Shown here: positions 10,875 through 40,851 of the stretch, piece after piece
How positions within the stretch are numbered: position 1 is the first letter of the stretch
How the letters are laid out: each line of letters starts with the position of its first letter
Assembly: GCF_025685625.1 (NCBI RefSeq)
Contig: NZ_JAGSYI010000001.1
Coordinates: 2,337,147-2,401,146, forward strand
DNA length: 64,000 nucleotides
Reading direction: 5' to 3'
DNA from: Acidicapsa acidisoli
GTDB taxonomy: Bacteria; Acidobacteriota; Terriglobia; Terriglobales; Acidobacteriaceae
The notes under the pieces: generated by a model
The model's database searches: none
The model's input: the letters and a program-made list of their open reading frames with translations, nothing else
What the model was told of the DNA's origin: nothing
Position numbers and translations under genes: made by a program

Positions 10875-12071
10875 TCAATTCCGTTCGTAGGGAATCGTGA
10901 TCGCAACTTCAAAGCCGCCCCGGTCCAGCGGTAAAGCATGCATGTCATAGCCATCCCGGTAGAAATGTGCGAGGCGCTCCCGCGTGTTGCTCAGGCCGAT
11001 GCCGCTGCCTGGCTTAGGACGCTGGTTGATTCCCGATCCGCTATCGCGCACACATAACCGCAACAGATCACCGTCGCGTCGGGCGGAGGCTTCGACCAGG
11101 CCGTCGCTCTCGCAGTTCGCAATGCCGTGCCGGATCGCGTTTTCCATGATGGGCTGAAGAAGGAAACAGGGAACGAGGCCGTCGAGCGCGCCTGGTTCCA
11201 CTTTGATCTCGATGCGCAGCCGGTCGGCGAATCGGGTTTGCTCAATTGCGAGGTAGTTCTCGACAATCTCTAGTTCCTGCGACAACGGAACTTTCTCCGG
11301 TGTTGTTCTCTTCAGGGTGTTCTTGAGGATGGCATTCAGATGCGTCAGCATCTCCGCGGCTTCCTTTTGCCGGCCAAGTTCGACAAGTGCGGTGATTGAG
11401 TTGAGCGTGTTGAACAGAAAGTGCGGCTCCAACTGCATCTGCAGCGCTTGCAATTGCGCGGCTGAGAGCTGCCGTTCCAGTTCGAGGGACCGCATTGCGT
11501 CCCGCTGGGCGCGAACCTGATTTTGAAGGACACTTACGATACCAAAGACGAAGCCGTAGATCAGGATTTCGATGCCGTAACGGTTCACATTGAAGAGATA
11601 GTGCGCCACGGACGCGGGAGTCTGACCGCTGTGCCACCCGAGAGGGGTGAACCCAAGACTCCACAGGAAAGCGAGATGGGTTGCTCCGAGCAATGCGGAC
11701 ACCGGGACATGGATTGCGGTCGCTTTGACTGTGAAATTCGACACGGACGGCTGCAGTTTACCGAGTTTCCATAGCGTGCTGGCAATTACACCCCACCAGC
11801 CCCAAAGCACAACGCCATAGATCAACGATGCCGGATGCGTGATGGATTGACACTCGTTGGCGGTGACCAAAGCGAGCAGTGCCGCAATGGCGAAGGTGAT
11901 GAGGTGGCCATTGAGATGAACGGGTAACCTTTTCGCCCTATCTACAGTCCTCTTCCCCTTGACGGGCCCTGCTTGCTGCGCGGTGTCCAGGTGCATGACG
12001 GTCTGGCGCGATGCGATCTCACCACTCGAGCTTTGGCACCAGTTTTTATTCCAGCTTTGATCTGTTCCCAT
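10875..12071 (-). CDS. LytS/YehU-type sensor histidine kinase
   Basis: 398 residues. About four membrane helices (roughly 55-210) precede a coiled linker (about 195-225) and a His_kinase (PF06580-type) phosphoacceptor region: LEPHFLFNTLNSI contains the phosphorylated His in the family's hallmark PHFLFN. The HATPase follows with ENAIRHGI (N box), DSGSGI (G1) and GSGIGLSN (G2). No extracytoplasmic sensor domain is present, so sensing is probably within the membrane. It pairs with the LytTR regulator downstream. The first about 50 residues are poorly conserved and a later start is possible. Confidence 0.95.
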   Translation of the reverse strand: MGTDQSWNKNWCQSSSGEIASRQTVMHLDTAQQAGPVKGKRTVDRAKRLPVHLNGHLITFAIAALLALVTANECQSITHPASLIYGVVLWGWWGVIASTLWKLGKLQPSVSNFTVKATAIHVPVSALLGATHLAFLWSLGFTPLGWHSGQTPASVAHYLFNVNRYGIEILIYGFVFGIVSVLQNQVRAQRDAMRSLELERQLSAAQLQALQMQLEPHFLFNTLNSITALVELGRQKEAAEMLTHLNAILKNTLKRTTPEKVPLSQELEIVENYLAIEQTRFADRLRIEIKVEPGALDGLVPCFLLQPIMENAIRHGIANCESDGLVEASARRDGDLLRLCVRDSGSGINQRPKPGSGIGLSNTRERLAHFYRDGYDMHALPLDRGGFEVAITIPYERN

Positions 12072-16572: not shown

Positions 16573-19035
<2,463 letters not shown>

Positions 19036-19415: not shown

Positions 19416-20783
19416 TTAATGCTTCTCTGGCGTCAGCACTGGCGCCCGAAGAGGCGTGGTCTCTATCTCGATGCGGGTGTTCCTGACGAAGTCTACGTTG
19501 TGTCCGGGGCGAAGAAAGTTTTCATAGACCGAGAGCGCGGCGGCGTAGTAACCGATTCCTGCGGCGAGATCGCGATTGCCCGCGGCGACCCCGACAACCC
19601 GGCCGACCAGGCCAAAACCGTTGGATGCAACTCCTGTTTGAACGGTGAGATTGCCGTCTTCGTCCAGTGCTCGGCCTGCAAGCGCAGTGAGCAGCAGCGG
19701 GGCGATGACGCTGGACTGGTTGCGAGGCGAGACTGTCCCTTCGGCGTTGAGCGAGAGACCTTGTGCGCTCGCGGTTGTGGCTCCGGCCAACAAGCCCTGG
19801 ACTGTGCTCTCCGAACCTTCGGGAAAACGCACTTGCTGGAATGTGAAGCGTAGTTTCCCGTTCCGGCCGAAAGAGCGGGCGGCCTTTGACGCGGTGACTC
19901 TGCCGATGAGAATCGAGTCCTGGGGAACGACGAGTTGGCGATTCTCATCGAACACCGGCTCGACTACGAGAGCCTGGACAGGGTCGCCGACCTTGGCCGT
20001 TGCCGAGGTTACTTCGGAGGTGAGCAGTGCGTTTACGGACCATAGCTCTGGCTTGCCCGGGCGAGCTGGAGCTGCGGATGAGGGCGTCTCAGGCAGCGAC
20101 CCTGGCAGTGCGAGCGGGGCAGCAAAGTCGAAGGAGTACATGGTCTTCGCCTCAATGCGCTCGGGGTGATAGGGAAGCTGATGGTAAAGCAACTGCAGAG
20201 CTCGATCGCCAAAACCAGGCGCGGTGAAATAAGCGATCCTGTCGTGTAACTGGGTTTTTGTCTGGGCCCAATAGCGAGAGAAGATTGATCCCTGCGTGGC
20301 GGAGCCGCTTGCCTGAAGGTGAAGTACCGGAGCGCCGGTCGCTAGCCCCGTTGTGGATATAGCGACCGCGCCGCTGGGCAGGATAAGTTGATCGAATCGG
20401 ACCTGGGGGATATGAAACGGGGTGAAATCTCCCCGCAGTCTTCCGTGCCAGCGCGTCTTTGTGTCGGCGGTTAATTTAACCACCGTACCGTGGACGGGAG
20501 TATCTTGAGGGATTGCCAATTTTCCTTGAACAAAGATGGGATGGAGAAGCCGAGCTTCGATTGGTTGATTCGCCTTCATCGGATAATGGCGCGTGATCTC
20601 GACTTGGAGGTTCGTTCCCTGGGCAAGAATCGGCTGCTCGTAGGCCTGCGATGGTTTGTTTGTTGGGATTTTGGGAGTGTCGGAAGAACGGGGTGTAAGA
20701 GTTTGACAACTCAATCTCGCAGCCACGCAGAGAACAATCAGGATCAGCAGGCCACGAGGGATGAGTTTTGCATCGTTACGCAT
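19416..20783 (-). CDS. Exported protein with two TrbI/VirB10-like beta-barrel repeats, function unknown
   Basis: 455 residues from the ATG at 20783, chosen because CAGGAG precedes it and a signal peptide (GLLILIVLCVAARLSC) follows; an upstream frame extension lacks these. Two related segments occur: about 74-145 (IEARLLHPIFVQGKLAIPQD, HGTVVKL) and 268-330 (VQALVVEPVFDENRQLVVPQD, IGRVTASK). Both look like the 'G..i.A.l..pv...g..liP.Gs.l.G.V' barrel of TrbI/VirB10 family proteins. No other conjugation genes are near. It lies 130 bp downstream of the YceI gene and may be the last gene of that transcript. An envelope-associated role is likely; nothing specific can be assigned. Confidence 0.72.
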   Translation of the reverse strand: MRNDAKLIPRGLLILIVLCVAARLSCQTLTPRSSDTPKIPTNKPSQAYEQPILAQGTNLQVEITRHYPMKANQPIEARLLHPIFVQGKLAIPQDTPVHGTVVKLTADTKTRWHGRLRGDFTPFHIPQVRFDQLILPSGAVAISTTGLATGAPVLHLQASGSATQGSIFSRYWAQTKTQLHDRIAYFTAPGFGDRALQLLYHQLPYHPERIEAKTMYSFDFAAPLALPGSLPETPSSAAPARPGKPELWSVNALLTSEVTSATAKVGDPVQALVVEPVFDENRQLVVPQDSILIGRVTASKAARSFGRNGKLRFTFQQVRFPEGSESTVQGLLAGATTASAQGLSLNAEGTVSPRNQSSVIAPLLLTALAGRALDEDGNLTVQTGVASNGFGLVGRVVGVAAGNRDLAAGIGYYAAALSVYENFLRPGHNVDFVRNTRIEIETTPLRAPVLTPEKH

Positions 20784-20914
20784 GGGATGGCTCCTGATGG
20801 ATGTTGTGCGTTGCGCCGCGAAAGTTAACCGCACCCCCTGTTCACGGATTTCCGGCTCAACGTCGATGCGGTTTCGGCTGAGATGCGATCTGGACCATTG
20901 TGAGCCGGTCCAGA

Positions 20915-21493
20915 TCAATTCGCAGAAGACAAGTGGCCTACGAGAGCAAGATCGATATCGACCTCTTTGGCGACTTTGAGGATGAAGACGCTCGGGTCCT
21001 TAAGGCCCCACTTTACGTATGGAACGACAAAATGCGTCTTTGCCGTGCAATTTGTTCCGTCGATGTGAACTTGTACGGGAACGGTCAAATCATGGGGTGT
21101 TCCGTGGAGTGTGAAGGTACCAGTTATCTGGATGGTGGAGTCTCCCGATGGCGCGATCGCTCCCTGGTAGCTCTGCGGGACAAACGAGACCTCGGCAAAG
21201 TGGGAAACATCGAGAACATCGTTCTTCATTTTCTTGTCCCGGCCGTCGTTGCCGCTGTTTCCGCTGCCGGCCGCGACGACCACAGAGCCTGAGATTTTCT
21301 GAGTACCACTATCGAAGTCAATTGAACCACTCTGCACATGAAATGTTCCCTTGACGGCATGATCGCTGCCGCCGAGAGTGAATGTTACCTGGCTTGCATC
21401 GGCGGCTATGGCAAGGGTCTGATGTTGAGCAAACGCCACAGGTGCGAAAGCGAGTGGCAGTACAAAAAGGAGTGAGCGGGCGAAACTCTTCAT
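20915..21493 (-). CDS. yceI: YceI-family periplasmic polyisoprenoid-binding protein
   Basis: 192 residues with a cleavable signal peptide (1-22, FAPVAFA-QH). YceI features are clear: a VTFTLGG start strand, MKNDVLDVSHFAEVSFVPQSY, ITGTFTLHGTPHDLTVPVQV and the C-terminal VDIDLALVG. The family folds as a lipocalin-like barrel that holds a polyisoprenoid chain; some members carry quinones or respond to acid or osmotic stress. The ATG overlaps the stop of the upstream cytochrome fusion (ATGA). A prenyl diphosphate synthase lies in the same operon, which supports a real isoprenoid ligand. Confidence 0.95.
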   Translation of the reverse strand: MKSFARSLLFVLPLAFAPVAFAQHQTLAIAADASQVTFTLGGSDHAVKGTFHVQSGSIDFDSGTQKISGSVVVAAGSGNSGNDGRDKKMKNDVLDVSHFAEVSFVPQSYQGAIAPSGDSTIQITGTFTLHGTPHDLTVPVQVHIDGTNCTAKTHFVVPYVKWGLKDPSVFILKVAKEVDIDLALVGHLSSAN

Positions 21494-23484
21494 TGTCGTT
21501 CTCCAGAGATTAAGACTCTTTGTTGATTCTTTTCTGGCAATGCGATCGTCTGCGACAGCCAGAGGCTGATGGAAGCAATCTCCCGGTCACGGAGATACTC
21601 GTGGCCGGGCATATCTGTTTCTGCAATGCCGAATTTTGTAATTTGGGCCAGGCGATCTACGAGAGTGGCGCGCACTGCTGCCGTGTCCGGTGTCTGCAGA
21701 TGCAGAAACGGCCCCACGCGCATATCTGGTGGAAGCCTCTTGAACTGGGAACGCCACTTCTGACGCGCAAGGCCTTCGGTGGTATGACAGGTGGCGCAAT
21801 AGTTTTGGAAGAGTTTCGCCCCCTCGTCGGCGTTCGCTTCAGCCACAGACTCCAGAGGCAGGCGCCAGGCCAACTCCGCAAGGAGATGTTTGGAGGAGTC
21901 GGAAGTCTGCAAACTGCTTACATACGCCACCAAATCGTCGCCTCGCTGGTCGCGAAAAAGATAAGCATAGGAAGGCATGATAGATGCGTAGCTAACATCT
22001 CTCGGGTTGAAGAAGTGCGCTTTCAGCCAGAGTGGAGACCTGCGAGTTCCCACCTCGGAAAGGTCTGGTCCTTGACGACGATTGCCGATCAGAGGCGGGT
22101 GTTGCCGCCGAAGCTCTTCCACGGTCTGAACGGGTCCCCATAACAATACATCGGAGGTGTTGGGACGCACGTATTGCGAATGGCAATGAATGCAGCCCTC
22201 CGAGATGTAGACCTGCCTGCCGCGTTCTGCGGCTGACATTGCTTTGACTGAGGTGTTTTGATTTCGAGTGGCAAGGTCAATTAGAAAAGCTGCGCCGAGA
22301 ACAAGTCCCACCAACGCGATCTCACGCAGGTGCGCTCGAACCCGAGAAAAGAACAAAGGCGCGATGATTACGACCCCGGCGAGCAAAACGAAGTTCGGAG
22401 GAACGTGACCGAGGTTCTGTCCCATTCCGATGCCCATCGCGGAGCCGAACCAGCCCGCGATTGCATAGATCCATCCAGCCTGGCGGCCCCGTTGCGCAAT
22501 GGAAGAAGCCGGCGCGAGCAGCGATGGATAAGCAACCAGAGCGACGGAATAAAGCGATACACCAACAGGATAGAGGAGTGACGCCGCGGCAGCCCGGCCT
22601 GGATCAAGCAAGAGCAAACAAGCTGAAGCGAGTGCGAGGAATGCGAGAATCAGGACGAGGCGTAGTCCGCGCCGACGCAGTAACCACGCGCTCCCCAGCG
22701 CAGCGCCGAGGTGGAGGATGCCATTGAGCCAAAGGTGGAGCGTGCCTTGCCATGTTCCCGCCTTGAGTGCCGGCGTGCTCTGAATGATGAAGAAGGCCGC
22801 CGAATCGAGCCAGACAAGCGCCGTAAAGCCAACCAGGACCGCCGCGAAGGGAACGGTGCGCTCAGACGGAATGATCGGATGCCGGGAGAATTCAGTTTGC
22901 GTCGTTAACTCTGTGGATTGCCCTTGCCGGAAGGGAACAAGAATCCCAGCGAAACACAGCGTTGCGGCCGCAATCGCCTGAGTCTGCGGCGAAGCTGTAA
23001 AGAGCGCAGGAAGATTGCAACACAGATAACCGATGCCGGTGCCAAGGCCAACCTTCATCAGAGGATCGTGGTCTCCGAGGGTGAGCCGCAGGTGAGTAAC
23101 GAGTGTAACGGTCAGAAGCCCCAGACCACTTCCGATGAGAGCTGAAACGACGATACTGCTCAGGAGATTGAGAGGTAGCAGCGTCAGAAGGGCGGCAATG
23201 GCGCAGGCAGCAAGCGATTGCCGGATGCGCAACTGTGGTGACGGATGAAACGAGATCCTCGGAGCAAGCAGGCTGAGCGTAATGCCGCCGAGGGCCATTG
23301 CGCTCATCACCAGCTTGAGGTGCGTGTCAGCGATGTTCAGGTCTTGAAGGCGTTTCAGAAAAGCGAATTGTGCAAAGATGAGGAAATAAACATAAGTGAT
23401 TGCGACGAGGGCAACGCCACCCCATCCTGCGCCGGATGCGCCCGAGTGTCGCGTGTCTAAGGCGCGAGCTTCAGACGGCGTCAT
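21490..23484 (-). CDS. Fusion of a 12-TM transporter-like domain, a CcoO-like cytochrome c and a second cytochrome c
   Basis: 664 residues in one uninterrupted frame. Residues about 22-408 form some 12 hydrophobic helices with MFS-like texture. A cytochrome domain follows with heme site CIHCH (431-435) and axial M503 (IMPSYAYLF). Its surroundings, EGCIHCHSQYVRP, PDLSEVGTRRS and AHFFNPRDV, match CcoO/FixO, the mono-heme subunit of cbb3 oxidase. A second domain has CATCH (563-567) and M625 (TDMPGHEYL), like a CcoP or class I cytochrome c. The oxidase subunit I-like gene is two genes upstream. The gene overlaps its upstream neighbour by 14 bp and YceI by 4 bp. Probable role: electron transfer in an inner-membrane complex; the transporter part may be only an anchor or a true carrier. 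No stop or frame break separates the parts. Confidence 0.88.
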   Translation of the reverse strand: MTPSEARALDTRHSGASGAGWGGVALVAITYVYFLIFAQFAFLKRLQDLNIADTHLKLVMSAMALGGITLSLLAPRISFHPSPQLRIRQSLAACAIAALLTLLPLNLLSSIVVSALIGSGLGLLTVTLVTHLRLTLGDHDPLMKVGLGTGIGYLCCNLPALFTASPQTQAIAAATLCFAGILVPFRQGQSTELTTQTEFSRHPIIPSERTVPFAAVLVGFTALVWLDSAAFFIIQSTPALKAGTWQGTLHLWLNGILHLGAALGSAWLLRRRGLRLVLILAFLALASACLLLLDPGRAAAASLLYPVGVSLYSVALVAYPSLLAPASSIAQRGRQAGWIYAIAGWFGSAMGIGMGQNLGHVPPNFVLLAGVVIIAPLFFSRVRAHLREIALVGLVLGAAFLIDLATRNQNTSVKAMSAAERGRQVYISEGCIHCHSQYVRPNTSDVLLWGPVQTVEELRRQHPPLIGNRRQGPDLSEVGTRRSPLWLKAHFFNPRDVSYASIMPSYAYLFRDQRGDDLVAYVSSLQTSDSSKHLLAELAWRLPLESVAEANADEGAKLFQNYCATCHTTEGLARQKWRSQFKRLPPDMRVGPFLHLQTPDTAAVRATLVDRLAQITKFGIAETDMPGHEYLRDREIASISLWLSQTIALPEKNQQRVLISGERQ

Positions 23485-23881
23485 CGCTCAGCCAGCCTTT
23501 CCTCAGGCCGATCACCTGGATCACAGCAAGGACCCCGTCCGAGACCGCAACCGTCAACCAGCCAAATTCGAGGGTGTTGGACAGGATGCTCACAAGTACG
23601 AATGCAGCCACAAGCCCACGCGTGAGTGCGGTAAGGAGCCACACCATTTCAAGTCGTTGTGACACATCGTGGCGGCCCGCAAGCCAGGCCCCGAAGAGAC
23701 AGCTCACACCTGTTGATAGGACGAATGCGCCGATGAACGAAAGAAACGGCAACGCGTCCTCAGCTACATGCAGTCGCATAAGGTGCAAGGTGAACCCAGG
23801 CTCCAGGATGAGCAGGATGCCCGTTCCTGCATCGGAGAGACCGGTCAGGAGTTGGTATGCGAAAAGTGCCCGCCGCCTCAC
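23471..23881 (-). CDS. Small 4-TM membrane protein in the cytochrome operon
   Basis: 136 residues, four hydrophobic helices (about 10-28, 45-67, 78-98 and 103-122) with short loops and a charged N-terminus. The start is GTG, overlapping the TGA of the upstream subunit I-like gene as GTGA; its 3' end overlaps the next gene by 14 bp. No family recognised. Position between the subunit I-like and cytochrome fusion genes suggests a small accessory or assembly subunit, comparable in place but not in sequence to CcoQ-type subunits. Confidence 0.8.
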   Translation of the reverse strand: MRRRALFAYQLLTGLSDAGTGILLILEPGFTLHLMRLHVAEDALPFLSFIGAFVLSTGVSCLFGAWLAGRHDVSQRLEMVWLLTALTRGLVAAFVLVSILSNTLEFGWLTVAVSDGVLAVIQVIGLRKGWLSDDAV

Positions 23882-25269
23882 CGCGCTCTCTCCGTCGAAT
23901 ACGAGAATTCAGGGGCGGAGGAAGTTCGTAACAGTTTCCCTGCATCGATTAGCCAGATTGCCGAGGCGCCCAGCATCAGCAATCCGGTCCCGAGGCGGGC
24001 AATATACAGCAGGTTGCGTTCTAGGCCTGGAATCATCGTGTAGGACGGATCGAATCCCTCGCGCCATCCGGTGTAAAACATCAACAATACGTAAGCCAGG
24101 ACACTGCCTTGCCATACATAGAGCGAACGCGCTCTGTTCAGTATCCAACCGTCTTCTCCCAGGAGCTGAACCAAAACGAAGATCAGCAGACTGGTGACGA
24201 AGCCTGCCATGGCTAAGAGCGAATGACCCACCAGGCCATCGGTGAACTTGAAGTGGTCCAGAACGCCGGGAAGAAAGAGCACCCATCCCGTAGGAACCAG
24301 CAAGGACCACCACGCAAGCATTGAAATTCGCCAGCCGCGAGTATTGGGATGCCATTGAAAGGCCGCGAAGTAAGCAGGCGTCAGCGGCAGCCATATGAGG
24401 AGGCTTCCAAGGCTGATGTACTGCACAGGGCGATGATGGCCGACATCCGCTCGTCCCAGGCCGAAGCAAAGTATCGACTCCGCTGCGAGGACGATCCATG
24501 CCGAGTTGATCTGCCATGATCGGCCAGTGCGCCGCTGCGTCAGGCCGAAGGGAATCACTAAGAGAATCGCAATGATCATCAGCGTCGATTCAAGTTGGCT
24601 TGCGCCGGTCGGGCCACCCGAATCTGGATTGATAGGCGGGTAAACCGTGGGGCTTGACGCGAAATAGAGAACTGCCGGAATAGCCAGCAGCAGGCACAGA
24701 CCAAGAACCTTCGCGATCCGGACAACTAACCTTGCATTTCCGCTTGAATGCCATTGTTGTATCAGCGAGGTTGCAAGAAGAGTCCAGAGTGTTGCCATCG
24801 CGATCGGGAAAAGAACCCGAGGGTAGCCGGTCCAGTCGAGAAAGAGCTTGCCTGTCGCGTGGCCGTTGAGCCAGGAAACTGAGCCGACGGCGAGTGCGAT
24901 GGACCAGACCCAGAGAACTGGGCTGCACCACTTCGCGATTCTTCCATGATCGGCGTCGTAGACCTTGAAGAGGAAGGCCATCATCGGCAGGCTGCACCAG
25001 CCGTAGAGTTCCAGATTCATATGCACCGGCATCCAACGACCGTAGGACCATTCGCCCAGGGTACGGTTGAGCCCGGGCACGATTAGCAATAGCGCAATCA
25101 GAACTCCGATGGCATTTGAAATCGCAAGCCATAGCAGGCTGTGCCAGACCGCTTGCACTATTGGTTTTGCTTGAATGTCGAAGCTCGCAGATGGCGAGAT
25201 GCTTTGCGACGGGTGTACTAAAAACTCGTTCGAGGTGAGAAGCTGGATCTCAGGAAGACTCGTGCTCAT
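23878..25269 (-). CDS. Heme-copper oxidase subunit I (CcoN)-like protein with incomplete ligand set
   Basis: 463 residues from the ATG at 25269, chosen for GGGAGG 6 nt upstream. About 12 TM helices. H83 in MPVHMNLELYGW matches the helix II heme His of oxidase subunit I, and H278-H279 (DVGHHRPVQ) sit where the helix VII His pair of Cu-B would be. In helix X only one His (H349 in GLVGHSLLAMAGF) replaces the usual H-x-H, and the helix VI region (NPDSGGPTGASQLESTL) shows no Cu-B His. By eye it is a divergent CcoN that may bind a low-spin heme but lack normal O2 chemistry. It overlaps the ABC ATPase end by 20 bp and the next gene by 4 bp. Family resemblance is good; the ligand mapping needs an alignment. 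Confidence 0.78.
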   Translation of the reverse strand: MSTSLPEIQLLTSNEFLVHPSQSISPSASFDIQAKPIVQAVWHSLLWLAISNAIGVLIALLLIVPGLNRTLGEWSYGRWMPVHMNLELYGWCSLPMMAFLFKVYDADHGRIAKWCSPVLWVWSIALAVGSVSWLNGHATGKLFLDWTGYPRVLFPIAMATLWTLLATSLIQQWHSSGNARLVVRIAKVLGLCLLLAIPAVLYFASSPTVYPPINPDSGGPTGASQLESTLMIIAILLVIPFGLTQRRTGRSWQINSAWIVLAAESILCFGLGRADVGHHRPVQYISLGSLLIWLPLTPAYFAAFQWHPNTRGWRISMLAWWSLLVPTGWVLFLPGVLDHFKFTDGLVGHSLLAMAGFVTSLLIFVLVQLLGEDGWILNRARSLYVWQGSVLAYVLLMFYTGWREGFDPSYTMIPGLERNLLYIARLGTGLLMLGASAIWLIDAGKLLRTSSAPEFSYSTERAR

Positions 25270-25957
25270 GGATCCTCCCATCCCGCATTTCAACGAGGCG
25301 ATCGCATCGCTGGGCCAATGTCTTGTCGTGCGTGGCCATCACGAGCGTAATCCCCTCGCTCGCGACAAGTTCGAGGAGCAGGTTAAAGACAGCAGAGCTG
25401 GTCTTCTCGTCGAGTGAGCCCGTTGGCTCATCTGCCAGGAGAATGCGGGGACTGTTCATGAGGGCCCGGCACAAGGCCGTGCGTTGCCGCTCTCCTCCCG
25501 AGAGTTTCTGGATGCGCTGATCAAGCCGGTGGCTTAAGCCCGTGCGATCTGCGAGTTGCTTGAGCCTTGTGCGGGCCTGCTTCTGGTCTATGCCTGCTGC
25601 AACCGTCGGAATCAGGCAGTTCTCTGCGAGAGTCAGATCCGGAATCAAATTATGAAGCTGGAAGACAAATCCAATTTCGTGTCGCAGAAGACGGAGCGGA
25701 CTGCGATGCCGATTGATCTCAACGCCATTGACCGACACTGTGCCCTTGTCCGCGTCGTCCAAACCGCCGAAGAGGTGCAGGAGCGTGCTCTTGCCGCAAC
25801 CAGATGGCCCGCAGAGCGCAACAGTCTGGCCTTCGAAGGTTTCGAGGTCCGCGCCCTTCAAGACTTCAATGGATCCTTCGTCGTAGCTCTTCCAAACGTT
25901 TTTTGCACGGAGGACAACACGCCTGTGCCCATTTTCCGAGGATGGTGAGAGGCTCAT
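25250..25957 (-). CDS. LolD/MacB-type ABC transporter ATPase
   Basis: 235 residues from the ATG at 25957, which overlaps the permease stop as ATGA; the longer open frame upstream lies inside the permease gene and is not real. Walker A GPSGCGKST (50-58), Q-loop FVFQLHNLIP, signature LSGGERQRTALCRAL, Walker B ILLADEPTGSLD and switch His in MATHD are all present. Length and the ...GRI ending fit LolD/MacB/FtsE ATPases, which power FtsX-type extruders rather than importers. Partner: the permease immediately upstream. Confidence 0.95.
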   Translation of the reverse strand: MSLSPSSENGHRRVVLRAKNVWKSYDEGSIEVLKGADLETFEGQTVALCGPSGCGKSTLLHLFGGLDDADKGTVSVNGVEINRHRSPLRLLRHEIGFVFQLHNLIPDLTLAENCLIPTVAAGIDQKQARTRLKQLADRTGLSHRLDQRIQKLSGGERQRTALCRALMNSPRILLADEPTGSLDEKTSSAVFNLLLELVASEGITLVMATHDKTLAQRCDRLVEMRDGRIHEHESS

Positions 25958-27066
25958 TCGAATCGAAGCGCCTCCACCGCACGGACCCGCATCGCGTACG
26001 CGGCCGGATAGAGAGCTCCGGCAATCCCTGTAAGCAATGCCAGTAGGATGACGAGCAGCATGACTCCGGGTTCGATTGACACGTCTACATAACCGTGCAA
26101 GGCCGGTATCAGCTTGAGCGTAAACAAGAGGGCAGAGCCGATGAGCAATCCGATGACAGCGCCGACGACTGAGACCACAGAGGATTCGCCAAAGATCATC
26201 AACGCGATTTGTAAGTTCGAGAATCCGTTCACCCGGAGAATGGCTATCTCGCGAATTCGGGTGAAGACGGACATGATCATGGTATTCGCGACCCCGAGGC
26301 CGCCCAGTAGCAGGCCACATCCGCCAACAGCCCAGGCCGTAGCTTTCAATATCTTGAATTGGGAATAAGAGTGCTCGAACTCAGAGTCCTCCAGGCCGAT
26401 CAGGCTGGGGTACCTGGCCTTCACCATGCTCTTGAATGCTGCTGCGTCATCCTTGTTGCGAAGTTTTATAGTGATCACGGACGAAGTGCCTTGTTTATGA
26501 AAGAAGCTTTGCGCCAGGTCGAGCGGCATGAAAACTCCGCCATCCTCGAAACCATTGGCCGTCTTCACGATGCCGATTACATGGAAGGTTGCATGCCCGA
26601 TGGGCACGTGGCTGTCGAGTTTCGCTGCGAGAAACTCAGCCGCGCGTTCGCCGAGAACAACATCGTCCGAGTGTTGGGCAAATGCATCTCGATTCCCCTC
26701 GATCCAGGTAGCTTTGCGGATACGAGCATCATTTGAGGTTACGCCGAAACAAGTGATGATGGGATGATCGGCGCTGGAAACAATGCCGAACAACACCGGG
26801 TCAGCGTGGAGAACCATGGGCCAGTGCGCGATGTCATTGTTGGCCGATGCCGGAACGCTGCTGAAGAAGAGATCGGATACGTTCCTTTCGAAGACGATCA
26901 TTTTGCTGTCACTCGAAAGTATGCCAGAGAACATTCCGATCGCTCCCTCAAGTATCGTTACGACTGTTAGCATGGCGGCGACGCTGAATGCGATTCCGGC
27001 AATGCTGATGAGTGTTCGGAGCCGATGACGCCGCAGGTTGGTTAAGATCAGTTTTAGAAAGATCAT
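25954..27066 (-). CDS. FtsX/MacB-type ABC permease
   Basis: 370 residues. N-terminal TM helix (about 16-36), a periplasmic MacB-PCD domain (about 40-235), then three C-terminal TM helices (about 245-355), ending YAMRVRAVEALRFE, the usual FtsX tail. One four-helix unit, so it should act as a dimer with the adjacent ATPase. MacB/LolCDE-type machines move lipoproteins, lipids or peptides from the inner-membrane outer leaflet. Its ATG overlaps the stop of the prenyl synthase as ATGA. Cargo unknown; a polyisoprenoid or a cofactor-maturation role is inference from context. Confidence 0.93.
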   Translation of the reverse strand: MIFLKLILTNLRRHRLRTLISIAGIAFSVAAMLTVVTILEGAIGMFSGILSSDSKMIVFERNVSDLFFSSVPASANNDIAHWPMVLHADPVLFGIVSSADHPIITCFGVTSNDARIRKATWIEGNRDAFAQHSDDVVLGERAAEFLAAKLDSHVPIGHATFHVIGIVKTANGFEDGGVFMPLDLAQSFFHKQGTSSVITIKLRNKDDAAAFKSMVKARYPSLIGLEDSEFEHSYSQFKILKATAWAVGGCGLLLGGLGVANTMIMSVFTRIREIAILRVNGFSNLQIALMIFGESSVVSVVGAVIGLLIGSALLFTLKLIPALHGYVDVSIEPGVMLLVILLALLTGIAGALYPAAYAMRVRAVEALRFE

Positions 27067-27986
27067 GCTCTCAGTTCAACCGGCTCGTCACAGCATTTTT
27101 CGGTAACTCGCACCAATTCCTCCTGGAGGTCGCTTCTCAATTTACGGAGAAAGAACAGGGCGGGCCTCATGACCAGGAGACGCTCCAACGTTCTGTCGCC
27201 AAGGTGAATGAGTCTTGCGAGCCTCTCAACAGCTCCCACGGTTCCAATGACAGAGGCAATGTTCGGCCGGTCAAGCAGAACGTCGCGAGCGCCGGTCTTT
27301 CCGCTTTCCTGGTCGCTTTGATGCATGTCCTTCAAGTCATCGACGATCTGGTAGCTCAAGCCCCAGTACGTCGCAATGCGCTCCAGAAGATGCACTTCCA
27401 GAATTGATGCGCCACCGAGAATTGCAGGCAGTACGAGTGCCAGCCGGATCAGGGATACGGTCTTGCCGTGTGCGATCCGCTCCGTTGTTTCCTCATCATG
27501 GGGCAGTGTTGCGAAATGGAGATCCAGACTCTGCCCATTCAACAGGCCATCCACTCCAAGACGATGTTCGAGATAGGCAAGTGCTTCTGCCTGGGCCGTC
27601 TGGGAGCAACGGGAGACAGCACGCCAACTCAATGCATATGCACGATTGATCAGCGCGAGCGCGGCAAGAATTGCTCCCGACTCGCCAGACTGGAGGTGGA
27701 CGCATGGAGCGCCACGACGCTGCGTCGCATTGTCCATGCACGGCAAATCATCAAAAAGCAGGGAAGCCGTATGGAAGTACTCGAGCGCGATGGCGAGATC
27801 TTTTGCGTGTTCCGTGGCCACTCCGTAAGCGGTCGCAACTTGATACACGATACGGGGACGCACAAGGCTGCCCGGGTTGTCGAGCACATGACGCAAGGCT
27901 TCTTCAAAATGCCGGTCAAGATTTTCGGGGAGGGGCAGAAAGGACCGAAAGTCTCTTTCGAATAAACCTCTATCCAATACATCCAT
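27063..27986 (-). CDS. Polyprenyl (geranylgeranyl/farnesyl-type) diphosphate synthase
   Basis: 307 residues from the ATG at 27986, preceded by GAGGGCGGCAAGG; an in-frame ATG at 28091 would add 35 basic residues with a weak SD. First Asp-rich motif DDLPCMDN (FARM) and second motif DDLKD (SARM) are both intact, with LLFDDLPCMDNATQRRG and SYQIVDDLKDMHQSDQESGKTG typical of GGPP/FPP synthases. The short FARM insertion resembles type II or bacterial FPP/GGPP synthases. It condenses IPP with allylic diphosphates. First gene of the overlapping run that ends with the isoprenoid-binding YceI protein. Chain length cannot be fixed by eye. Confidence 0.9.
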   Translation of the reverse strand: MDVLDRGLFERDFRSFLPLPENLDRHFEEALRHVLDNPGSLVRPRIVYQVATAYGVATEHAKDLAIALEYFHTASLLFDDLPCMDNATQRRGAPCVHLQSGESGAILAALALINRAYALSWRAVSRCSQTAQAEALAYLEHRLGVDGLLNGQSLDLHFATLPHDEETTERIAHGKTVSLIRLALVLPAILGGASILEVHLLERIATYWGLSYQIVDDLKDMHQSDQESGKTGARDVLLDRPNIASVIGTVGAVERLARLIHLGDRTLERLLVMRPALFFLRKLRSDLQEELVRVTEKCCDEPVELRA

Positions 27987-28466
27987 ATGCCTTGCCGCCC
28001 TCGATTTGATGCCGATTTTCTTTCGACGATTTGTCAATCTTTCCATTCTTGAAGCCGTGTTTGCAGGGTCTTTATAGAACTTCCTTGTCATCAGCTCTAA
28101 TTGTGAGACGGATTTTCAGTTCGATTGGGAGCACGACCAGTCTGTGGATTCTATGACGATTTGTTCATCTTGCCTGATGCTTCGGATGGAGAGCCTGTTT
28201 CTCTGGCATTGATAATGGCCAGTGTGGGCGCGTCAAAGCAGGAACCAAGCTGCATTCACTTTGCCGACCACTGATCAATCAACGCTTTATCATCGCCCGC
28301 TCTTTCAGAATATGCAATGATCGTGAACTATGGTTTGAGCATGACAGGGTGATAACAATTGAATGACAAGCCCTTCATCTTTGCTTCGTCAAAAAGTCGG
28401 ATTAGAGTACTGCGGGATTGTAGAGTGCAACTCATATTTGTCTGCCAATTGGACTAATATCCAACT
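27987..28466. promoter_or_regulatory. Divergent promoter region between the isoprenoid-cytochrome operon and the OmpR/kinase pair
   Basis: About 375-480 bp depending on the prenyl synthase start. AT-richer than flanking genes, as expected for two back-to-back promoters. No clear dyad or riboswitch recognised. The divergent two-component system is a natural candidate regulator of the operon. Confidence 0.45.
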
Positions 28467-29144
28467 ATGCGACTTCTGCTCGTTGAAGACGAAATTGACA
28501 TCCAAAATTTCCTGAAGAGCTCGCTGAAAGAGGCTGGGTATTTCGTCGATGCCGCCTCCGACGGCAGGAGTGCCGAGCAACTTGCGATAGAAGGCGAGTA
28601 CGACGTACTAGTTGTTGATCTCGGCCTACCGGACCAAGACGGTATATCCCTGATTTTGCGTCTGCGGCAACTTGGAGTCACCGCTCCAGTGCTCATTCTT
28701 TCTGCGCGCCGGTCAGTAGACGACCGCGTAAGAGGCTTGGAGCACGGTGGGGATGATTATCTGACGAAGCCCTTCGCACTGGCAGAGTTGATCGCAAGGC
28801 TGCGGAACTTGCTCAAACGGAACAGCTCTTCCGGAGGTGAGGCTACCAAATTGCGGGTCCTCGATCTCGAACTGGATCTGCTTCGGCATGAGGCTTTCCG
28901 GTCCGGTCACGCGCTTCAGCTTACTCCCCAGGAGTTCACGCTCCTGGAATATCTTTGCAGGAATGCCGGCCGCGTCGTGACGCGTTCGATGATTCTCGAT
29001 CAGGTTTGGGGAATGAGAATTCAGCCCGATACCAATGTCGTTGATGTCCATATTTACCGTTTACGCGGCAAGGTAGACGGCAAGGGGCAGACTCCGTTGA
29101 TTCGAACCTTGCGAGGTGTAGGTTATGTCCTCAAGGATCAGTAG
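28467..29144 (+). CDS. OmpR/PhoB-family response regulator
   Basis: 225 residues. Receiver domain with E7/D8 pocket, phospho-acceptor D51 (VVDLGLP), S/T in LSAR and K in LTKPF. C-terminal winged helix (about 130-223) ends with VDVHIYRLRGKVDGKGQTPLIRTLRGVGYVL, the standard OmpR/PhoB recognition and hairpin region. The next gene, a histidine kinase, starts 20 bp before this stop. It probably regulates itself and the divergent isoprenoid-cytochrome operon; heavy-metal-type kinases of this class often pair with it. Confidence 0.97.
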   Translation: MRLLLVEDEIDIQNFLKSSLKEAGYFVDAASDGRSAEQLAIEGEYDVLVVDLGLPDQDGISLILRLRQLGVTAPVLILSARRSVDDRVRGLEHGGDDYLTKPFALAELIARLRNLLKRNSSSGGEATKLRVLDLELDLLRHEAFRSGHALQLTPQEFTLLEYLCRNAGRVVTRSMILDQVWGMRIQPDTNVVDVHIYRLRGKVDGKGQTPLIRTLRGVGYVLKDQ

Positions 29145-30615
29145 ACCCGTATTTCGATCGGCAGCTTGGAGGATTTCTCTTTGGGCTACGCTCGCCTTTG
29201 CATTTGGCACGATGGTCGTTTTCGTTTTCCTTCATCGATTTGTCGCCAATGACATTCAGAGGAGGAGCGACGCGTGGTTGGCGGGCGAGGTCGAAGTTCT
29301 TGGTGATGTCGCCGCTCGGACACCGAAAGATGCTTTGTATGGCCGAGTCGTCAGGGAGGTCGCAGAGCTGGCAGGTCGCGAGGTACCGAACAAGCTGCAA
29401 TCCAATGGTGATGGCGCGCGGAATGACTCGGTCTTTTTTCTCCAGGCAGGCCCTGATGATTCGCTGCGGTTATGGGTAGGCACCGGTACGGGAGAGCCCA
29501 ATCTGCGCGCAATTCGTTCGACTCAAATTGCGCCGGATCACCCCACTGATTTACGGGTGAGCGGTTTTACCATTCCGTTTCGGGTCGCATCCGTTCGCAT
29601 GCAAGATGGGAGCCGGATTTATCTAGGACTCTCTGAGCGTGATGAGCTCCGCGTACTGAGAAGTCTTCGCTCTCGTTTCTTTCTATTGTGGCTCCTGATC
29701 GTGCTACTTGGCTTCTTGATCGTTTTCTTCACTACGCGGCGGATGTTGAGTCATGTTCGCAGAATCAGTGAAGCCGCATCCAGGATCGGCCATTCCGATA
29801 TTCATACTCGCGTCCCAACCACCGGGCGCAATGATGAAGTAGCGCACCTGGCACTGACCCTGAATGGGATGCTTGATCGTATCGAGAATTCGATGCATCA
29901 ATTGCATTCGATTACAGATTCACTCGCCCACGACCTCAGGAGCCCGCTAACTGCGATTCGAGGCCAGCTGGAGATGTCTCTCACCGATCCGAGGCATGCT
30001 GATCCGAGTCTTGGCGAGACATCTGAGCCGATCGTTACAGCCATCGAAGAACTGGATCGATTAACCGAGTTTCTGAACACGTCTCTAGATGTGGCCGAAG
30101 CGAAAGCGGATGCCCTGCGATTGACACGGACAGAAATAGATCTGGATGATTTGCTCAGATCGATGGTCGATCTGTACGAGCCATGCATGTCGGAGAGGGG
30201 CTTGCGAATCAGGCTAATTAGTGCGGGTTCTCTAAAGATAGAAGCAGATGCTGCGTTGATCCATCGCATGATTGCAAACCTGCTGGATAATGAACTGAAG
30301 CACCTTCCCGCTGGGTGCGTAGTGACGAGCCGGCTGCAACTTGTGGATGGTCACGCGGAGTTGATCCTGGAAGATAACGGCCCAGGCTTTGATACTGAAA
30401 TCAGTGCGCATTTGTTTGAGTGCCGCGTGAAAGGCAAAGGCTCCAAAGGGCACGGATTGGGCCTCGCATTTGTGGAGGCTGTCGCGCGTACTCACAGCGG
30501 AACCGTTGAGGCATTGAATCGCAGTCAGGGTGGAGCGATGATTCAGGTAAGGCTGCCTCTTTCGTCCGGTCAGAAAACCGAGAATGCAGTTTCAAGACTA
30601 GCGACTGCAAACTGA
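29125..30615 (+). CDS. HAMP-containing sensor histidine kinase
   Basis: 496 residues. TM1 (about 15-38), periplasmic sensor region (about 39-185), TM2 (about 188-208, LLIVLLGFLIVFFTT), HAMP (about 210-262), H-box SLAHDLRSPLTAIRGQ, N-box IANLLDNELKHLP, G1 DNGPGF and G2 KGHGLGLAF. Typical EnvZ/CusS-like topology. It overlaps the response regulator by 20 bp, so the pair is cotranscribed. The signal is not evident from the periplasmic domain. Confidence 0.96.
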   Translation: MSSRISRPVFRSAAWRISLWATLAFAFGTMVVFVFLHRFVANDIQRRSDAWLAGEVEVLGDVAARTPKDALYGRVVREVAELAGREVPNKLQSNGDGARNDSVFFLQAGPDDSLRLWVGTGTGEPNLRAIRSTQIAPDHPTDLRVSGFTIPFRVASVRMQDGSRIYLGLSERDELRVLRSLRSRFFLLWLLIVLLGFLIVFFTTRRMLSHVRRISEAASRIGHSDIHTRVPTTGRNDEVAHLALTLNGMLDRIENSMHQLHSITDSLAHDLRSPLTAIRGQLEMSLTDPRHADPSLGETSEPIVTAIEELDRLTEFLNTSLDVAEAKADALRLTRTEIDLDDLLRSMVDLYEPCMSERGLRIRLISAGSLKIEADAALIHRMIANLLDNELKHLPAGCVVTSRLQLVDGHAELILEDNGPGFDTEISAHLFECRVKGKGSKGHGLGLAFVEAVARTHSGTVEALNRSQGGAMIQVRLPLSSGQKTENAVSRLATAN

Positions 30616-38440: not shown

Positions 38441-39457
38441 TCACGAAGCGCCGCCCAATTCCCGGTACATATTAATATGCAATGCCGCGATGGTTTCCCA
38501 GGAGAATTGCCGCGCATACTCTGTGGCCTGTTGCGAAAGCCGGAATCGTTCAGTTTCGGATGCCATCAGGCGTCTGGCGACTTCGACAGCCTCGAATGGA
38601 GAGGCAGCCAACACCACAGATTGGGCCAGTTCGAGCGGAGTCTGAGCACTGCTTGTTGTGATGCACGGAACTCCCGCCGCCAAAGCTGCCTTCAAAGACC
38701 CTCGTCGCTCAGACGCTCCATCGGGAAATGGCAGGTAGGCGAGTCCTGCTTTTGACAAGAGATCCGAAACTTCGTCAGCGCTCCGATCTAAGATCAATTG
38801 CACTTTATACGCCGCGAGGGAAGCAATCAGACTCTGCGCATAGGCTTCCTGGCCCGGGAAGATCCTTCCAATGGCAAGCAGATTCCAATTGAGGTTATTC
38901 GCGCGAACCTGCCGGGAAAACTCCAGAAAATCTTCGAGCCCCTTCCTTGGGGTGAGCAAGCCGAAGTATATAACGCTTTGTTCGCGGTCCATCTGAGGGG
39001 CGGCATGGGGATAGATATTACTGCCTATAGGAATGACTCGTACTCGACTCTTTGCCCATGGCATCCTCTGCACTAAAGCATCTCTTTCAAATTGAGATGG
39101 CATTACAATACAGGGCGAGCGCAACGTGAAGGGAAATAGCGAAAGCTTGCGGAGGGGATGGGCAAGGCTAAATTCGTGAATGGTTACAATGCCCTGTCTG
39201 GCCAAGAGACATAACTGAGGACCGAGACTGTATCCATATCCCAGAGAAGGATATTGCATATGTACCAATGCCTTACGCGCTGCCACTAGGTTCAATAGTG
39301 CCTTCGATGTCCCGGTCAGGCTCCAATCTCGATGGCAAAACACTTCCACTTGTTGTCCTGCGTTTTCTAGTGAGTCAGCCAGTGACGCGGTGTAGTCCCC
39401 AATTCCGCAGGGATCCGGAGGGGCCGATCCCGTAACCAAAATGATCTTCGGATTCAT
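38441..39457 (-). CDS. GT4-family (GT-B) glycosyltransferase
   Basis: 338 residues from the ATG at 39457, which overlaps the polymerase stop as ATGA; a longer frame start is inside the upstream gene. N-terminal MNPKIILVTGSAPPDPCGIGDYTASLADSL is a GT4-like opening, YFGLLTPRKGLEDFLEFSRQV is the usual 'GRl...KG' turn, and RRGSLKAALAAGVPCITT stands in the nucleotide-sugar-binding E-x7-E region, with a weakly conserved first Glu. Adds a sugar to the growing repeat unit. Donor and acceptor unknown. Confidence 0.88.
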   Translation of the reverse strand: MNPKIILVTGSAPPDPCGIGDYTASLADSLENAGQQVEVFCHRDWSLTGTSKALLNLVAARKALVHMQYPSLGYGYSLGPQLCLLARQGIVTIHEFSLAHPLRKLSLFPFTLRSPCIVMPSQFERDALVQRMPWAKSRVRVIPIGSNIYPHAAPQMDREQSVIYFGLLTPRKGLEDFLEFSRQVRANNLNWNLLAIGRIFPGQEAYAQSLIASLAAYKVQLILDRSADEVSDLLSKAGLAYLPFPDGASERRGSLKAALAAGVPCITTSSAQTPLELAQSVVLAASPFEAVEVARRLMASETERFRLSQQATEYARQFSWETIAALHINMYRELGGAS

Positions 39458-40851
39458 GCTGATTCCAAACCATGTTTTCTTTCTTGTGCCCCGTCTGATT
39501 TCCAACTCACTGCAATCGCCATACCGACAACAAGCCAGAAATTTCCAAATACCAGCGGGAATTCGATCAGTATGCTTGTGGCTAGGAAGACGGCGAGGCT
39601 GAGGAACCAAGCCGAGCGGGAGAGACTTGAAGGAATGCGTAACGAATCTAACGCTCGCCAATCAGCGCGTATCACCGAAAACATCGCACCAAGGAACGCA
39701 AGCGTTCCGAGAATGCCTACGTTGGACAAGAGTTTGATGATGAGATCATGCGATGTCGCACTACCCCACCCGATTCCCAGAATCGGGTACTGCACAAAGT
39801 ACCCATAGGCGAGAGCAATCGTCATCGCGCGTTCGATGCCGGAACCCGAGGTCGACTTGCTTAGAATGGCGGAGTTTACCATCTCACCCACAATAGGAAC
39901 AGAAAGCACGGCTGCAGCCAATAGACCCGTGGTGGCCAGAGCTCCAATCACGATTAGCAGAATTGCCTTTCCTTTAGAGATGGCACGAGTTCGTACCAAC
40001 AGAGGTACGAGCAATGCACCGAAAATGAACACGCCAACATAAGCCGTGGAGGATGTGCTCAGCAGCAAAAGGAGAAGGAATAATAAAGAGGCTAGTCGGT
40101 CGATCGGTACAGAAAATACGGAGCCGTTCCTGAGCCAGGCGGGAAGAGTTAGTGGCAACAGTGTGATCAGACTCTGCGCCAGGACGGAAGGCTCTACGGC
40201 GGTTGAAGAAACCCTGCTGATTCCGTTATCCAGCGTTTGCAAGAAGCCCTTACCCGAAGCCGATCCAGAGTTGTTGAATATGAAGTCCGGATAAGGCATG
40301 CCCGTAACATTGCAGAAGAACTGAAAGAGACCCCAGATTGAGATGAAGATTGCCGAGATCATGATTACTTTTTCGGTCTCGTGCCTATCTTCATCACGCA
40401 GATTAACATGCGCCACGCAAATCGCGACAAGACCACCAAACACCAGATACAGCAGTTGAGTGACATTGTGCGAGCTGAGATAGAGCGGCGTCTCTGTGTT
40501 TTCGCCGAGGATTGGAGAAGAGATTGTCAAGCGGCCGTTGATATAAGCCGGCATGACGAGGGATATGCCCGCAACAGCCAGAAACCCAATTAGCCAAAGG
40601 CACAAACGAAGGACTCGACGATCGATTGCAAAAGAAAGCGTCGAAAGGCGTTCGAGCAATAAGCGGAGAAGCCATAAAAAAGCAAAAACCATCCACACTT
40701 GCAAGGCTGAGCCGCTGTCACTATCGCCCAAGTTTATAGCAGACGAGGCGGAGAACAGAGTCCAGAAAACAAACAGTCGATAAAGCCACTTGGCGGATAA
40801 CAAGAGCCCTGCGAAACCGACGGGAAGAAGGATATATCCTAGGGGAGTCAT
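39454..40851 (-). CDS. Wzy-like O-antigen/exopolysaccharide polymerase
   Basis: 465 residues with about 11-12 TM helices. A large periplasmic loop near the middle and a later segment GYFVQYPILGIGWGSATSHDLIIKLLSNVGILG resemble the Wzy_C domain of O-antigen ligase/polymerase proteins, which typically have P-x-G-x-G...H-N. Overlaps both neighbours by 4 bp, so it belongs to one operon with the glycosyltransferases. Polymerase rather than ligase is inferred from the presence of Wzx- and Wzz-like proteins. Confidence 0.82.
   Translation of the reverse strand: MTPLGYILLPVGFAGLLLSAKWLYRLFVFWTLFSASSAINLGDSDSGSALQVWMVFAFLWLLRLLLERLSTLSFAIDRRVLRLCLWLIGFLAVAGISLVMPAYINGRLTISSPILGENTETPLYLSSHNVTQLLYLVFGGLVAICVAHVNLRDEDRHETEKVIMISAIFISIWGLFQFFCNVTGMPYPDFIFNNSGSASGKGFLQTLDNGISRVSSTAVEPSVLAQSLITLLPLTLPAWLRNGSVFSVPIDRLASLLFLLLLLLSTSSTAYVGVFIFGALLVPLLVRTRAISKGKAILLIVIGALATTGLLAAAVLSVPIVGEMVNSAILSKSTSGSGIERAMTIALAYGYFVQYPILGIGWGSATSHDLIIKLLSNVGILGTLAFLGAMFSVIRADWRALDSLRIPSSLSRSAWFLSLAVFLATSILIEFPLVFGNFWLVVGMAIAVSWKSDGAQERKHGLESA

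Follow-up and report, generated by a model that had tools for sequence, protein, structure and literature searches.

Proteins of the YceI family are widespread, and the reason for their pairing with membrane cytochromes is poorly understood. In the LcoA-BcnA system, a cytochrome b561 is paired with a YceI-type lipocalin, and its authors suggest that the cytochrome re-reduces the quinone held by the lipocalin (PMC9113575). Cbp2D of Cellvibrio japonicus couples a quinone-binding, YceI-like domain to two cytochrome domains of the c type (PMC8981238). Here, we describe an operon from Acidicapsa acidisoli, located in a 64,000-nucleotide stretch of contig NZ_JAGSYI010000001.1 (positions 2,337,147 to 2,401,146; hereafter, the window). 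Its genes recur together across genera and phyla. To the pairing of YceI with a cytochrome, the unit adds its own prenyl synthase, a di-heme relay, and a copper-stripped oxidase core; hence, it makes the idea of a periplasmic lipid acting as an electron carrier directly testable. We tentatively propose that it is a dedicated envelope redox module, in which an isoprenoid or quinone bound by the YceI protein would exchange electrons with a complex derived from cbb3 oxidase.

By analogy, LcoA-BcnA is the nearest functional precedent. As in that system, the gene of a YceI-family lipocalin (PF04264 here) is linked to that of a membrane cytochrome, for which an action on the bound quinone is proposed. 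However, the cytochrome of the present unit is cbb3-derived and carries c-type hemes, no b561 family occurs among the unit's proteins, and the unit has its own prenyl synthase, an MFS domain, an ABC pair, and regulators. Cbp2D is a single protein with a carbohydrate-binding module and no membrane core, found in secretomes (PMC8981238). With cbb3 oxidase (CcoNOP; structure 3mk7), the unit shares the subunit I fold, a CcoO-type and a second mono-heme c domain, and the histidines of transmembrane helix 2 (TM2) and the first position of TM10. Unlike cbb3 oxidase, it is devoid of the TM6 copper-ligand histidine, and the window's clade is also devoid of the second TM10 histidine; in addition, CcoO is joined here to the MFS domain, and the gene partners are a polyprenyl diphosphate synthase (PPS), a YceI protein, and an FtsX/ATPase pair. 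The LolCDE-LolA system sorts lipoproteins, and LolCDE loads LolA. The likeness is one of analogy, a LolC/E-like permease and a LolD-like ATPase standing beside a putative periplasmic lipid-binding protein; here, however, there is one permease gene, YceI takes the place of LolA, both ABC proteins score below the LolCDE cut-offs, and the pair is absent in several lineages. On the features compared, the unit belongs neither to the cbb3 oxidases nor to LcoA-BcnA, and by its presumed working principle it is a variant of the kind that combines a membrane cytochrome with YceI. Searches of an open-access library (most subscription papers and all bioRxiv preprints lie outside it) returned no paper in which polyprenyl terms are combined with YceI or cbb3, or CcoO with MFS, and none that describes what such a unit does.

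Operon layout and recurrence of the gene set

Seven minus-strand genes span 20915-28091, joined by overlaps of 4-20 bp, and a divergent response regulator/kinase pair adjoins them. All seven genes and the divergent pair lie where the original prediction, made from the sequence alone, had placed them. The features are as follows.

27063-28091, minus strand: PPS (PF00348, 128 bits; first aspartate-rich motif (FARM) DDLPCMD, second aspartate-rich motif (SARM) DDLKD, Ala at position -5 of FARM)
25954-27066, minus strand: permease of the FtsX/LolC-MacB type (PF12704 (MacB_PCD) and PF02687 (FtsX); best NCBIfam model lolCE at 75.7 bits, cut-off of 362.45 not reached)
25250-25957, minus strand: LolD-type ABC ATPase (start ATG 25957; PF00005 (ABC_tran), 121 bits; best NCBIfam model LolD at 217.2 bits, under the cut-off of 307.75)
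23878-25269, minus strand: CcoN-like membrane protein with the fold of cbb3 subunit I but no CuB-ligand His in TM6 (from hhalign, Foldseek, and the His columns)
23471-23881, minus strand: protein with four transmembrane helices (4-TM protein), outside known families
21490-23484, minus strand: fusion protein (MFS domain, a further transmembrane helix, CcoO-type heme c domain, second heme c domain)
22180-22194, minus strand: first CxxCH of the fusion, CcoO-type (C431-H435)
21784-21798, minus strand: second CxxCH of the fusion (C563-H567)
20915-21493, minus strand: YceI-family protein (PF04264, 78.8 bits; N-terminal signal-like stretch)
28467-29144, plus strand: OmpR-type response regulator (TIGR01387, 237 bits, below the cut-off of 279.2; nearest to CusR/CopR heavy-metal regulators)
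29125-30615, plus strand: sensor histidine kinase (TIGR01386, 186.5 bits, below the cut-off of 292.55; nearest to the CusS/CopS type)

Overlap lengths were taken from gene starts set by comparison with relatives. They are 4 bp for PPS/FtsX (27063-27066), FtsX/ATPase (25954-25957), CcoN-like/4-TM, and fusion/YceI, and 14 bp for 4-TM/fusion. The ATPase/CcoN-like overlap is 20 bp with the start ATG 25269 (residue M9, invariant in 6/6 aligned sequences) and 44 bp with the alternative start TTG 25293, from which the residues of the CcoN-like protein are numbered. The true start of the PPS is probably near 27986 rather than at 28091, because five aligned relatives are without most of the first ~35 residues. 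An open reading frame at 19416-20918 was rejected as an eighth gene; it matches no family, its first ATG lies only at 20783, and tblastn gave no match in the loci of five relatives. A scan for promoters and terminators stayed at chance level (7 promoter-like sites against 5.6 expected, 7 terminator-like sites against 11.7 expected).

The CcoN-like protein was used as the query against 61 near genomes and was found in six, all of the window's genus; within that genus, 6 of the 15 searched genomes matched, the window's own included. The order PPS-FtsX-ATPase-CcoN-4TM-fusion was kept in all five other loci; three of these also matched YceI, and one the regulator pair. When 396 genomes of the window's phylum were searched with a profile, 40 had a CcoN-like match, of which eight were strong and near full length. 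The others were weak and confined to the first third of the protein, and the subset of frames that was inspected consisted of ordinary cbb3 subunits. A scan of a collection of 84,980 species yielded 85 related loci (the best 80 of 85 were kept), a lower bound because the scan depends on peptide patterns. Viral contigs and plasmids were also searched, and no relatives were found.

The first set comprised 90 loci, reduced to 85 by removal of five duplicates (near-copies were kept); at 60 of them, at least 4.5 kb was available on either side of the CcoN-like gene. Hosts were Acidobacteriaceae, other Acidobacteriota, Verrucomicrobiota, and Bdellovibrionota, and the cultured species Terriglobus roseus and Edaphobacter modestus are among the carriers; the label Acidobacteriaceae was set by hand and takes in loci titled otherwise (e.g., L065 and L076) that the tree places inside. 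PPS and CcoO occurred at 60/60 flanked loci, MFS at 59, the 4-TM protein and the second cytochrome (CytC) at 58 each, and FtsX, the ATPase, and YceI at 56 each (YceI on the same strand in 52). The regulator/kinase pair was present at 47, a NAPE-PLD-like hydrolase at 13, and an isochorismate synthase at one. For the second set, a broader profile was run against 288 genomes of Verrucomicrobiota and 45 of Bdellovibrionota, the phyla of loci L122 and L120, respectively. Matches at E <= 0.001 were obtained in 36/288 and 8/45 genomes; those of 16 and 2 genomes were strong and near full length, the two centres counted, and one further Bdellovibrionota genome has the CcoN-like gene split in two pieces. 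Sixteen new loci, L170-L185, were analysed, with L186 left out as a repeat of L120. They contained CcoO (15), YceI (15), PPS (13), CytC (13), MFS (12), FtsX (11), the ATPase (11), the 4-TM protein (11), the response regulator (7), the kinase (7), the hydrolase (3), and no isochorismate synthase.

Conservation of the neighbours in relatives was thus checked, and the outcome did not refute the original prediction. Since the same genes are found side by side in other genera and phyla, with proteins about 35-80% identical, their association, as judged from the sequences, is not a matter of chance. Pairwise distances between the families were rank-correlated within Acidobacteriaceae (0.53-0.86; no control gene was included, and common descent of the hosts could explain much of this).

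The set is not uniform, and FtsX/ATPase, MFS, 4-TM, YceI, and PPS are each missing from some members. Loci L122, L172, and L174 are devoid of MFS and the 4-TM protein but retain YceI, PPS, the CcoN-like protein, the di-heme cytochrome, and the regulators. L172 and L174 are also devoid of FtsX/ATPase, so that YceI, PPS, the CcoN-like protein, the di-heme cytochrome, and the regulator pair are all that remains of the set there. The cytochrome of L174 and L122 starts with a short hydrophobic signal-like stretch in place of the MFS domain. We read these reduced loci as losses because they are nested among fuller loci in the CcoN-like tree; they indicate which parts the unit can do without. YceI, prenyl synthase, CcoN-like protein, and di-heme cytochrome form the most constant part of the unit. 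The ABC pair was considered as a core component and rejected, as it was not found in L110, L128, L136, L138, L172, L174, and L182. The original prediction had the isoprenoid extruded or bound; since several lineages are without the ABC pair, extrusion by it cannot be essential everywhere.

The CcoN-like core, the heme fusion, and the prenyl synthase

The CcoN-like protein had no Pfam match and a weak NCBIfam match to cbb3 (1.2e-4). In a single hhalign comparison, it aligned with true CcoN over 388 columns (probability 88%, E 3e-6), with the TM2, TM7, and TM10 motifs in register; the reference was a set of seven cbb3 CcoN sequences that had been picked by motif in genomes of the same phylum. 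For structural comparison, the natural CcoN-4TM fusion of the relative L015 was modelled with AlphaFold2 (mean pLDDT 89.6; the alignment used for folding lets the tails of CcoN rows stray into the 4-TM region). Foldseek of this model, which is not that of the window protein, ranked cbb3 subunit I (3mk7) best (E 3.3e-8, probability 1.00, TM-score 0.47 by query and 0.60 by target), and the cbb3 chains were followed by NOR, ba3, and bo3. A sequence search of solved structures gave zero matches with the CcoN-like profile and one chance match with the single sequence. From alignment and model together, the CcoN-like protein is a cbb3 homologue with the subunit I fold.

The metal-ligand positions were compared in 82 CcoN-like sequences. 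His was present in TM2 in 82/82, in TM1 in 77, and at the first TM10 position in 79 (two gaps, one unread). The TM7 pair was His-His in 55, the window included. The TM6 column, which aligns in hhalign with a copper ligand of cbb3 (one of the three CuB histidines), had His in 1/82 and mostly Ala, Thr, or Ser. Because of this column, and because the TM7 pair is not universal, oxygen reduction by the CcoN-like complex is unlikely. The TM2 and second TM10 histidines are the bis-His ligands of low-spin heme b in cbb3. The second TM10 column had His in 23, Leu, Phe, or Ile in 55, Asp in one, and three unresolved residues. In a quick tree of 96 CcoN-like and seven ordinary CcoN sequences (SH-aLRT support only), ordinary CcoN was separated by a long branch. 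The 55 sequences without the second TM10 His formed one group (support 99), the window's clade, and 38 other rows keep that His. Beside this group stood one of four Verrucomicrobiota rows that keep it. From this placement of the ligand states, we read that the copper site was lost first and the low-spin pair was broken later in the window's lineage. The family would thus be a heme-copper oxidase relative whose catalytic ligands were lost stepwise while fold and partners persist.

The Acidobacteriaceae CcoN-like proteins cluster with a few Verrucomicrobiota rows (one Luteolibacter) and not with other Acidobacteriota; this grouping suggests transfer of the operon between phyla.

The fusion protein matched FixO (102 bits), Cytochrom_C, and, below threshold, MFS_1. 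Its model (mean pLDDT 86.1) has 13 long helices at residues 21-410, preceding the heme domains. The best Foldseek matches were MFS transporters, with 376-441 aligned columns in the first ten; SV2A was best by E (3.5e-6), and NorA had a TM-score of 0.72 by target. Twelve MFS helices and one more would put the heme domains on the periplasmic side, as suits c-type hemes. Heme sites were counted in the rows above the score floors (73 CcoO, 71 CytC): both Cys, the His, and the Met ligand column were conserved in 73/73 rows for the first CxxCH and in 71/71 for the second. A library scan detected FixO in 43 of 43 and Cytochrom_C in 42 of 43, and MFS and CcoO share one frame in 69 loci. The 4-TM protein had no Pfam or NCBIfam match and is fused in frame to the CcoN-like protein in L015, L016, and L096. 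A CcoN-MFS fusion in L126 was rejected, as the frame crosses a masked stretch.

The FARM pattern was found in 78/80 PPS (exceptions L118 and the cut-off L099) and SARM in 79/80 (exception L127). The residue at -5 of FARM was Ala or Ser in all 78 pattern-matching PPS, and it is Ser in the alignment with a plant geranylgeranyl diphosphate (GGPP) synthase. Against solved structures, synthases of geranyl diphosphate, GGPP, and farnesyl diphosphate (FPP) came top among the best 60 of 139 matches. In NCBIfam, the FPP synthase model (FPPsyn) outscored CrtE, both below cut-off. A C20 product is predicted.

The original prediction had suggested either a quinone-like isoprenoid or a heme side chain as the product. 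Nothing in the neighbourhoods points to heme side-chain synthesis. A quinone-like product receives indirect support from an isochorismate synthase encoded inside the cluster in two genomes:

L110, 7470-8951: second isochorismate synthase (268.9 bits, cut-off 224.75)
L118, 6761-8254: second isochorismate synthase (311.5 bits, cut-off 224.75)

Locus L118 is not one of the 60 flanked loci, its flank being too short. Both genomes are Acidobacteriota and carry another copy elsewhere, which in the L110 genome lies within 5 kb of MenA. A search for MenA gave no match in the window's genome and in two Acidobacteriaceae relatives (the genomes of L069 and L049); hence, the same quinone route cannot be assumed in the window's lineage. 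Isochorismate synthase gave no hit over the cut-off in the window's genome. A naphthoquinone-specific role is accordingly kept as no more than a hint, given that the synthase occurs in two loci and the window's genome has neither a MenA match nor an over-cut-off isochorismate synthase.

Proposed function and competing explanations

We tentatively favour a dedicated envelope redox module. The PPS would make the isoprenoid part, with C20 as the probable length, of a lipid, for example a short-chain quinone or a polyisoprenoid, and the YceI protein, judging from its family, would hold this lipid in the periplasm. One cbb3-derived membrane complex may be formed by the CcoN-like core together with the 4-TM protein and the MFS/di-heme subunit; it would exchange electrons with the lipid via its periplasmic c-type hemes and, as the copper site is gone, would not reduce oxygen. 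In the window's lineage, the LolCDE-like ABC pair may serve to transfer the lipid to YceI, in the way that LolCDE loads LolA; other lineages are without the pair. The adjacent Cus-like two-component system probably controls the operon. The likely purpose would be to keep a periplasmic lipid reduced, either against lipid radicals or as an electron shuttle. The original prediction is partly supported: the genes form one recurring unit, but the CcoN-like protein is devoid of ligands of a cbb3 catalytic subunit. The sequences show the unit, the folds, the conserved motifs, and the losses; the product, the bound ligand, the complex, the direction and path of the electrons, loading by the ABC pair, and the purpose are what we infer.

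Several observations weigh against this module. PPS is missing from 3/16 second-set loci (L178, L179, and L181); L181 is also without YceI and the ABC pair, and L179 without MFS. No YceI gene lies nearby in 4/60 first-set loci, and the second cytochrome was unmatched in L107 and L110. In L185, a 5.5-kb contig, YceI is on the opposite strand about 3.5 kb from the CcoN-like gene, which counts against a fixed set. The low-spin heme ligand pair is broken in the window's clade, which complicates any path of electrons across the CcoN-like core. Besides the operon PPS, the lowest-scoring of three PF00348 genes, the genome of the window has two others of that family and four further YceI genes. No recurring prenyltransferase or quinone-ring enzyme was found in the unit, isochorismate synthase being limited to two loci.

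The unit could instead be a counterpart of LcoA-BcnA in lipid-radical detoxification: a quinol bound by YceI would quench peroxyl radicals and be reduced again by the cytochrome complex, and a copper- or oxidant-sensing two-component system would induce the genes. YceI beside a membrane cytochrome is the layout of LcoA-BcnA. The regulators score best against heavy-metal (Cus/Czc) models, HprR is among the regulator's top five matches, and the NAPE-PLD-like gene adjoins 13/60 loci. We consider this explanation unlikely, as the unit is devoid of cytochrome b561, no aldehyde reductase was recognised, the regulator matches are under the cut-offs, and the NAPE-PLD-like gene accompanies a minority of loci. 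An outward shuttle, in which quinol electrons pass via the complex, the YceI-bound lipid, and the c hemes to acceptors at the outer membrane or outside the cell, polysaccharide oxidases for example, would find a parallel in Cbp2D, whose two c-type cytochrome domains and YceI-like domain were studied by its authors with regard to reduction of lytic polysaccharide monooxygenase (PMC8981238). The recurring neighbours inspected, most of them unannotated and with no genome-wide search made, included no recognisable acceptor of this kind, and we regard the shuttle as improbable.

A role in respiration, either as a genuine reductase of oxygen or NO whose ligands are unusual or as a quinol:cytochrome c oxidoreductase of the main chain, would suit the fold nearest to cbb3, the CcoO- and CcoP-like domains, the TM2 and first TM10 histidines, and the TM7 His-His of 55/82 sequences. 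It is quite unlikely, given the TM6 CuB-ligand His in a single sequence, the variable TM7 pair, the match in only 6/15 searched genomes of the window's genus, and the two additional PF00115 (COX1) genes of the window's genome. We assign a comparably low probability to a regulon rather than a machine, that is, stress-induced genes with separate lipid and redox tasks held together only by shared control. The dispensability of FtsX/ATPase, MFS, 4-TM, YceI, and PPS in some loci suits a regulon, and physical contact of the products is a prediction. However, the gene order, the overlaps, and both kinds of fusion (three loci for CcoN-4TM; 69 loci with MFS and CcoO in a shared frame) recur over phyla beside differing regulator arrangements. 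We also considered, as a highly speculative and very unlikely case, that the fusion is a redox-coupled transporter, in which electron flow between core and hemes drives or gates the MFS domain and moves the isoprenoid or quinone over the inner membrane onto YceI; if true, transport would be energised by electron transfer and not only by an ion gradient or ATP.

Neighbouring genes

NAPE-PLD-like proteins, which have a metallo-beta-lactamase fold, lie beside loci of Acidobacteriota, Verrucomicrobiota, and Bdellovibrionota, hinting at a link to phospholipids. Two examples are listed.

L110, 13478-14506: NAPE-PLD-like protein, adjoins the cluster
L088, 13780-14799: NAPE-PLD-like protein, closest to human NAPE-PLD (4qn9, E 2.2e-58)

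In the window, an 820-aa protein downstream of the operon (16573-19035) resembles, by eye, a duplicated permease of the FtsX/MacB type. Upstream, at 2308-5856 and 10875-12071, are two histidine kinases of other types (a propeller/PAS kinase and a PF06580 kinase, respectively). A glycosyltransferase (38441-39661), a DegT-type aminotransferase (52181-53509), and an SLBB polysaccharide export protein (56893-59625) suggest an exopolysaccharide region.

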